A program made the translations under genes and the position numbers. From Pseudanabaena biceps PCC 7429 (GTDB lineage Bacteria; Cyanobacteriota; Cyanobacteriia; Pseudanabaenales; Pseudanabaenaceae), in assembly GCF_000332215.1 (NCBI RefSeq), contig NZ_ALWB01000022.1:1-36941 (forward strand): a stretch of 36,941 nt of DNA, in the 5' to 3' direction. Below the pieces are notes generated by a model. The model saw only the letters and a program-made list of their open reading frames with translations, did not search any database and was not told the DNA's origin. This document shows positions 8,847 through 36,906 of this stretch, piece after piece. Each line of letters starts with the position of its first letter. Position 1 is the first letter of the stretch.

Positions 8847-8893
8847 TGGCTACTTGATTGCCAATTCAGAAACGGTTAATCTGGAGAGCATCG

Positions 8894-8997
8894 TAAGTAG
8901 TTCGGCATAATTAAAAAACAAAACCAGCGAGCGTACCTCCCGCTACGTGGGCGTTACGCTCGTCAAGGTTTTAAGTTTACTTATGCTTAGCTACTTA
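8894..8997. mobile_element. F1 element with GTACCG-type core, full ends
   Basis: It runs from TAAGTAGTTCGGCATAATTA to TTACTTATGCTTAGCTACTTA. The core GCGAGCGTACCTCCCGC / GTGGGCGTTACGCTCGT has several mismatches. Its right part is the uninterrupted reference for the nested insertion at 25.3 kb. Confidence 0.8.
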
Positions 8998-9092
8998 ATA
9001 TGTTGATCCTCGCCAATGTATGCCCATGCAAGACAATGGTAATCCTTTGGAAAACGAACTAGCGATCGCCTAAACCTAGATGGTCAAATCCT

Positions 9093-25278: not shown

Positions 25279-25486
25279 TAAGTAGTTCAGCATAATTAAA
25301 AGCCAAAATCACAGCCTGTAACGCCCGCATAGAGGACGGTACGCTCTTCTAGGTTTAAGTTTATACCAAGTTAAGAAATGGCTACGCCATTTCTTAACTT
25401 GGTATAAACTTACTAGGTTTAGTTTTTAATTCACAAAAGTGTTGTCACACTTTCGTGAATTGGTATTACTTATGCTTAGCTACTTA
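25279..25486. mobile_element. F1 element interrupted by an F2 element
   Basis: The left half TAAGTAGTTCAGCATAATTA to AGGTTTAAGTTTA and the right half TTACTTATGCTTAGCTACTTA match the uninterrupted F1 at 8894-8997 exactly at the break (AAGTTTACTTATGC). The F1 core (CGCCCGCATAGAGGACGGTAC) is degraded. The surrounding 331-base gap contains this composite and a hairpin, and no gene. Confidence 0.88.
25364..25465. mobile_element. F2 element inserted in F1 with TTA target duplication
   Basis: It runs TACCAAGTTAAG to GTGAATTGGTA (102 bases). TTA occurs on both sides (25361-25363 and 25466-25468) but once in the uninterrupted F1. The left part is a perfect hairpin (19-base arms, TAC loop), the right part another (ATTCACAAAAGTGT / ACACTTTCGTGAAT, nearly perfect). 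Confidence 0.88.
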
Positions 25487-29381: not shown

Positions 29382-29582
29382 TACCAAGTAAAGAAATGGC
29401 ATAGCCATTTCTTTACTTGAAAACCCTCACTAAATAGCTGGGCATAATTAAAACCCAGAATCACAACCTGTAGCGCATGCTGCGCGTGCGCTACAGGTTG
29501 TGGGGTTTTATATTTAATTGCGCAGCTACTTAGTTTTAGTTTTTAATTCACGAAAGTGTTGTCACACTTTCGTGAATTGGGA
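29382..29582. mobile_element. F2 element interrupted by an F1 element
   Basis: TACCAAGTAAAGAAATGGC-ATA-GCCATTTCTTTACTTG forms the left hairpin, then the spacer AAAACCCTCACTA, the F1 insertion, the spacer GTTTTAGTTTTT, and the right hairpin ATTCACGAAAGTGT / ACACTTTCGTGAAT to TTGGGA. TTA precedes it. It fills most of the 314-base gap between the SDR and cupin genes. Confidence 0.85.
29432..29532. mobile_element. F1 element inserted in F2
   Basis: AAATAGCTGGGCATAATTAAAA to TTTAATTGCGCAGCTACTTA, with core CTGTAGCGCATGC-TGC-GCGTGCGCTACAG. The host F2 spacer is continuous in the copies at 15.5 and 25.4 kb (ACTAGGTTT). A target duplication cannot be fixed at this junction. Confidence 0.85.
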
Positions 29583-36865: not shown

Positions 36866-36906
36866 TACCAAGTTAAGAAATGGCTACGCCATTTCTTAAC
36901 TTGGTA
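36866..36906. mobile_element. Solo 41-bp F2 left hairpin flanked by TAA
   Basis: TACCAAGTTAAGAAATGGC-TAC- plus its complement, 19-base perfect arms. It is identical over 41 bases to 25364-25404. TAA lies on both sides (36863-36865 and 36907-36909), as if this half unit alone had inserted or been left behind. Confidence 0.75.

Follow-up and report, generated by a model that had tools for sequence, protein, structure and literature searches.

F2, a hairpin-bearing MITE family of Pseudanabaena biceps with 3-bp target duplications, a probable IS630-family helper and inverted host flank in its palindromes

The short repeated element F2 of Pseudanabaena biceps PCC 7429 is in all probability a MITE of the IS630 kind that was moved by a helper into TNA targets with duplication of three bases, and whose hairpins were edited afterwards by template switching. 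F2 would thus be a non-autonomous IS630 (Tc1/mariner-like DDE) MITE possessing only the terminal recognition sequence of its helper, TACCAAnTnAnnAAA at each end, a sequence that would fold into a hairpin at either end of the element; the helper transposase would excise F2 and insert it, with duplication of the three target bases, at TNA sites, for the most part TTA or TAA, and in the stretch analyzed here it would have landed in a pre-existing element of another family, F1. After insertion, template switching during replication would edit the hairpins: the new strand would snap back on the first arm, copy the tip and the host flank, and rejoin the element, at least sometimes at a short match. 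The outcome would be perfect palindromes with inverted host flank, and related switches would re-match arms and invert loops.

The window copy and the F2 family

The window (the whole stretch of 36,941 nucleotides) is one contig in full (G000:C22) of the P. biceps genome, G000, the closest relative of which is designated G004. At 25.3 kb the window reads AAGT-TTA-TACCAAGTTAAG...GTGAATTGGTA-TTA-CTTATGC, where the 102-bp non-autonomous F2 unit, recognized from its sequence and its family copies, occupies 25364-25465 and the two TTA copies of the 3-bp duplication occupy 25361-25363 and 25466-25468 (all features on the forward strand); the left TTA is supported by family-wide statistics and empty sites as well as by the sequence. 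A copy of F1 at about 8893-8998 reads AAGTTTACTTATGC without interruption. The first-pass annotation had placed an F2 element within an F1 element at this point, and its coordinates and letters proved correct to the base. The F1 element that holds F2 spans 25279-25486, from TAAGTAG to CTACTTA, its ends being drawn between TA and AGTAG on the left and between CTACT and TA on the right by comparison of 24 parsed copies. Within F2, the left hairpin (25364-25404) was identified in the palindrome census: its 41 bp (TACCAA...TTGGTA) are palindromic as far as the tip of the element, around a TAC loop. Next to it, positions 25405-25411 read TAAACTT, whereas most F2 copies compared have AAAACCC or similar there; TAAACTT is the F1 flank AAGTTTA (25357-25363) in reverse complement. 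The right hairpin (25430-25459; TTCACAAAAGTG-TTGTCA-CACTTTCGTGAA) is defined by sequence and by the stem-pairing analysis.

Of 30 F1 copies, 24 could be parsed; AAGTA is preceded by T in 23 of them and TACTT is followed by A in all 24, a pattern compatible with an ordinary TA duplication. The window therefore looks like the nesting of a 3-bp-duplication element in an apparent TA element. The site was compared with loci of 19 relatives, 13 of which gave no readable interval; neither F1 nor F2 is present in any of the six readable intervals, among them that of G004, which is 96% identical on the right flank. The whole F1+F2 composite is absent from G004, and the window site thus has no visible F1-only stage. 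The reverse nesting occurs at 29382-29582 of the window, where an F1-like element (TAAATAGCTGGGC...GCTACTTA) lies within an F2 copy; the two families were therefore probably active over overlapping periods.

Elsewhere in the genome 40 full-length places (the scored 40 of 638 first-look candidates) match the F2 query at 85-100% identity, and a loose F2 end motif occurs 309 + 300 times, versus 5 + 8 times for a reversed control, so the recurrence of F2 is not due to chance. Most F2-class elements (40 of 49) are 101 bp long, not 102; the window copy owes its different length to the TAAACTT after its left hairpin, a sequence reverse-complementary to the copy's own flank. Flanking 3-mers are equal at 26 of the 40 copies, which were chosen by likeness to the window copy (15.8 expected with shuffled partners, p = 0.00015), and at 36 of 49 oriented F2-class elements that were not so chosen (20.1 expected; 0 of 20,000 shuffles). 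The latter set comes from a sample of 1.23 Mb (22% of the genome), part of it chosen for end motifs and part taken from the first 20 kb of each contig from C35 to C74, and comprises what was left of 122 candidate elements when 25 that could not be oriented and 48 reverse readings had been set aside. Equal 3-mers are found at 15 of 22 elements in the motif-chosen regions and at 20 of 26 in the other regions, the window copy being the remaining one. The duplication is in general TNA, mostly TTA or TAA, with TCA on both sides of one copy; the 13 unequal pairs among the 49 include TAA on the left with TTA on the right five times, and TTA with TAA once.

Joined flanks of ten F2 sites were searched in the genus, and one further site (L005) was examined outside that set. 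Clean empty sites with a single TNA are found in G004 at L001 and L028, as well as at L005, and in G014 at L015, where G004 has an F2 remnant. At L003 the element is absent from 12 aligned relatives and present as a remnant in G004, poor alignment of a terminator hairpin hiding the TNA in most of them. A full F2 is present in G004 at L016 and L020. Both genomes carry a full F2 at L023 (G000:C19) and its counterpart L320 (G004:C504), in opposite orientations, which reflects either two independent insertions at one target or inversion of the element in place. The joined flanks of L004, L014 and L017 gave no clear occupancy, the L017 junction in G004 being unreadable. Together with the equal 3-mers at most copies, the empty sites bear out the annotation, in which F2 was described as a separate mobile unit bounded by TACCAA/TTGGTA and duplicating 3 bp; neither of the two outcomes that the annotation named as refuting it was observed. 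F2 is short, gene-less and multicopy, with terminal inverted repeats, a target duplication and empty sites; judged from sequence, it constitutes a MITE family that is new but of an established type.

Two of these sites have local features of their own. The junction of L001, as read in G004 (L235), places the F2 target within a small hairpin, in its loop (TTATCTAG-TTACTT-CTAGATAA), and the F2 copy at L003 sits at the foot of the terminator hairpin.

The candidate helper and the length of the target duplication

The discrete ends and the 3-bp duplication of F2 recur on IS630-family elements of relatives, and from this we infer that an IS630 transposase is the mover of F2. In G000 itself, an IS630-type fragment on contig C101 begins with TAA followed directly by TACCAAATCACAAAAG, and in an intact paralogue (L146) of the gene that it interrupts the sequence continues straight after the same TAA. 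This fragment, the only one found in G000 with F2 ends, is interrupted and is cut off at the contig end, longer copies being found in relatives; the assembly consists of 464 contigs and may have lost IS630 copies. The locus (L136/L147, 18.2-19.3 kb of C101) is layered, an ATPase-like gene (by eye) being broken by the IS630 fragment, which is itself broken by a DDE_Tnp_1 element. In the 1.23-Mb sample no full transposon was recognized where TACCAA ends are paired at a distance of 600-2,500 bp, and the longest open frames between those ends look by eye like ordinary host proteins. The truncated, interrupted helper fragment would thus leave current mobility of F2 in G000 unsupported.

Transposase matches, many of them weak, occur in 49 of 97 genomes (G000 included). 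A TACCAA end is present at 12 of 13 inspected IS630 loci, that of G000 included, and in 11 of those 12 either TTA or TAA stands before it. Both ends could be located at 16 of 23 IS630 loci, the other seven having no pair of intact ends, and the 3-bp flanks are equal in 11 of the 16 (L248 being counted as unequal, and one of the equal pairs being GCC); this count is weak alone, as a mere preference for TTA or TAA on both sides would match about half. Flanks of 3 bp, mostly TNA, are found on IS630 elements of the Pseudanabaena relatives and of G027, and 3-bp flanks also occur in Fischerella muscicola PCC 7414 (flagged by script) and, by eye, in FACHB-63 and Komarekiella. The element at L154 is 1,143 bp long with TAA on either side and contains two open frames. 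The candidate helper's protein scores 129.8 bits against the IS630 family transposase model NF033545 (cut-off 100) and 61 bits against PF13358 (cut-off 28.6). Seven of the 49 F2 copies start with TACCAAATCACAAAA, identical to the right end of the IS over 15 of 15 bases, and for the ATCACAAAA subfamily of F2 the agreement with a full IS630-family element covers 15 of 15 end bases; the sequence common to F2 and the IS is limited to about 15 terminal bases. By these terminal matches and 3-bp flanks, the most likely helper of F2 is a transposon of the IS630 family that has F2's ends and its 3-bp duplication. The annotation had proposed that both families, being too short to encode a transposase, depend on a helper elsewhere; for F2 the ends common with IS630-family transposons argue for this, whereas for F1 no helper was found, the one candidate examined, the DDE_3 gene at L145, having different ends by eye (ACAGCCTGTTGAGG).

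Because the F2 targets are TNA, a second family of transposases comes into consideration: IS1031-type elements, a group within IS5, duplicate TNA, and G000 contains 18 matches to DDE_Tnp_1 (PF01609). An IS5-family transposase might then move F2, the likeness to an IS630 end being coincidental. TACCAA ends were not seen around any of the 18 matches, although for several of them a contig end hides one side; DDE_Tnp_4 (PF13359) has no match in G000, and it is IS630-family elements that have both the F2 ends and the 3-bp duplication, so that movement by an IS5 transposase is very unlikely. TACCAA ends near L128 and L136, considered as ends of such an IS5 helper, proved to belong to an F2 copy close by and to the terminus of the IS630 fragment.

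Also very unlikely is that F2 is a single-strand element recognized by its hairpins, of the IS200/IS605 (TnpA_REP, REPIN) kind. Its two hairpins, lack of genes and high copy number and, at two sites, its position within or beside a hairpin are what such an element would display; IS200/IS605 elements, however, insert without target duplication, whereas the target bases of F2 are duplicated, and the F2 tips are terminal inverted repeats held in common with an IS630. REPINs resemble F2 as mini-elements with hairpins but differ from it in that they are moved by IS200/IS605-like RAYT proteins and their target is not duplicated.

The preferred helper, an IS630-family transposon, resembles ISY100/IS630 elements (ISY100 being the Tc1/mariner-like element of Synechocystis) in its DDE_3 transposase, its length of about 1.1 kb, its inverted terminal repeats and its cyanobacterial host. 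It differs in that the L154 element has two frames where ISY100/IS630 has a single gene, and in its duplication: ISY100 and IS630 are reported to duplicate TA (PMC2170065), whereas F2 and its IS630 relatives do not show the 2-bp TA of an IS630-derived MITE and have 3-bp flanks, mostly TNA. In a literature search at abstract level no account of a 3-bp IS630 duplication or of an F2 MITE was found, and as far as found the 3-bp duplication would depart from the TA norm published for the family. The norm itself suggests a different reading, namely that the true duplication is the 2-bp TA of an ordinary IS630, with one variable base carried at one end. TA is the duplication measured for IS630 and ISY100 in the same report (PMC2170065), both TTA and TAA contain TA, and TTA/TAA flanks alone cannot separate a 3-bp duplication from TA plus one extra base. 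The extra base, however, would need to swap ends between TTA and TAA sites, and TA is lacking from the equal flanks TCA/TCA (an F2 copy), TGA/TGA (a solo palindrome) and GCC/GCC (an IS630 relative in G061), each a single case; a 2-bp duplication is accordingly judged unlikely. The GCC case (L257) is a single copy of a more distantly related IS630 element, whose ends are TACCAATTTAAA and whose 3-bp duplication is not TNA. With a true 3-bp duplication, F2 and its IS630 subgroup would be a testable exception to the TA rule of the IS630 family, and a likely helper can be named for a cyanobacterial hairpin MITE. Other cyanobacterial MITEs are known from Anabaena sp. 90, where they are described as gene-less, multicopy sequences of 77-541 bp with several internal inverted repeats (PMC3542288); F2 is like them in lacking genes, in its copy number and in its internal inverted repeats, but they are classed as type II, with no similar-ended IS evident in that account, whereas F2 has an IS with the same ends.

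Inverted host flank and hairpin editing

Palindromes of F2 contain inverted host flank, the direction from host to element can be read at one locus, and loop inversion between orthologues is seen at two loci; the replication mechanism of this editing is what we infer. Every F2 copy has one hairpin per end. In 40 copies that are 101 bp long, Watson-Crick pairs fill 97.5% of the stem cells on the left and 93.8% on the right, versus 78% and 85% with shuffled partners, and several stem positions carry two or three pair types. In most copies pairing ends 3-4 bases before the tip, whereas in the window copy it reaches the tip. With few exceptions the six tip bases are paired either in full or over 3 bp at most: at 137 hairpin ends the pairing extends 2 bp (63 ends), 3 bp (31), 6 bp (34), 4-5 bp (3) or 0-1 bp (6), the 34 six-bp ends being 17 palindromes each counted from both sides.

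A genome-wide census, with one mismatch allowed, gave 23 complete palindromes of the left type, 8 of which extend 5-8 bp into inverted host flank, versus 1.5 expected (0 of 20,000 shuffles). Inverted flank, which the annotation had not noted, is present in all six palindromes that lie within F2 elements, namely those of the window, L316 (= L005), L317 (= L007), L309, L071 and L068; in the window copy, where TAAACTT faces AAGTTTA, pairing amounts to 8 bp altogether. Two right-type palindromes (L103, and L084 at 14.4 kb) also carry 6 bp. At L005 the empty site in G004 bears the same flank, GGGCTTA, identical over 80 bp; the host bases therefore came first, and the element changed later. For the window copy the uninterrupted F1 copy places AAGTTTA in F1, so that direct polarity is available at one locus, plus an F1 paralogue. 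At L309, L068 and L317 the host flank was already similar to the inner sequence and few bases changed, and at L007 and L071 the G004 flank is too divergent or has another insertion, making polarity unreadable.

The stems thus lengthen in a single step and take up neighboring sequence in inverted form, as in a template switch, with the direction given by L005, and the inverted flanks fit snap-back template switching after insertion, which would be the simplest account. Template switches are reported to homogenize arms, extend stems and invert loops (PMC8604942; PMC8794818). Alternatively the inverted flank could arise during transposition, for example through a hairpin intermediate at the transposon end, and not through later replication errors; its presence in all six palindromes within F2 elements is in keeping with that, but the bases in question are found some 40 bp in from the element end, past the second arm, when an end-hairpin would have left them at the junction, and Tc1/mariner cleavage is reported to proceed without a hairpin intermediate (PMC2170065). 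Moreover, the orthologous copies described next show loop inversion and matched arm changes, that is, editing without new insertion, and an origin during transposition is considered unlikely.

The left loops occur in both orientations, at comparable frequencies (TAC 16, GTA 14; AAC 5, GTT 4). At L020 the G000 copy reads AAGAAATGG-C-TAC-G-CCATTTCTT and its G004 orthologue, in the same orientation, reads AAAAAATGG-C-GTA-G-CCATTTTTT, the two arms having changed in concert and the loop being inverted. The G000/G004 pair at L016 shows an inverted loop plus other changes, and the solo palindrome at L084, common to both genomes, has an identical loop. In arm homogenization, stem extension and loop inversion the F2 hairpins are like the quasi-palindrome and template-switch mutations already described (PMC8604942; PMC8794818). 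They are unlike them in that a mobile element is involved, the copied sequence varies from site to site and can be traced to the host flank. Each F2 copy lies in a different host sequence, and template-switch events can be read, with their direction, from genome comparison alone.

Solo palindromes were considered as independent movers. One of these, a 41-bp palindrome (TACCAA...TTGGTA) at 36866-36906 of the window, near the contig end, has TAA on both sides. Equal 3-bp flanks are found at 6 of the 17 palindromes without a recognized F2 body (the automatic label 'F2 remnant' at L074 being judged false by eye), one of them TGA/TGA; for all 23 palindromes the 6 equal pairs, versus 5.3 expected, are not above chance. 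In the relatives, the G004 site of L082 has the palindrome with a different right junction, that of L104 has other sequence, only the right flank of L108 was found, L072 gave no match, and L117 has a related palindrome among other inserts in G004 and none in G021. Independent movement of the solo palindromes is regarded as conjectural. A broader proposal, that a cyanobacterial IS630 subgroup went from a 2-bp to a 3-bp (TNA) stagger in strand transfer, that its MITEs are flank-copying devices whose end hairpins become host-sequence-bearing perfect palindromes through template switching, and that some 41-bp palindromes move alone and would be among the smallest DNA transposons, is regarded as doubtful when taken as a whole.

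Loop variation is also seen outside F2. In the terminator beside the F2 copy at L003, and at the corresponding loci of relatives (L209-L221), the loop varies in form and orientation between species (GTTTCGC, GCTTCGC, GCGAAGC), which may be another sign of loop inversion.
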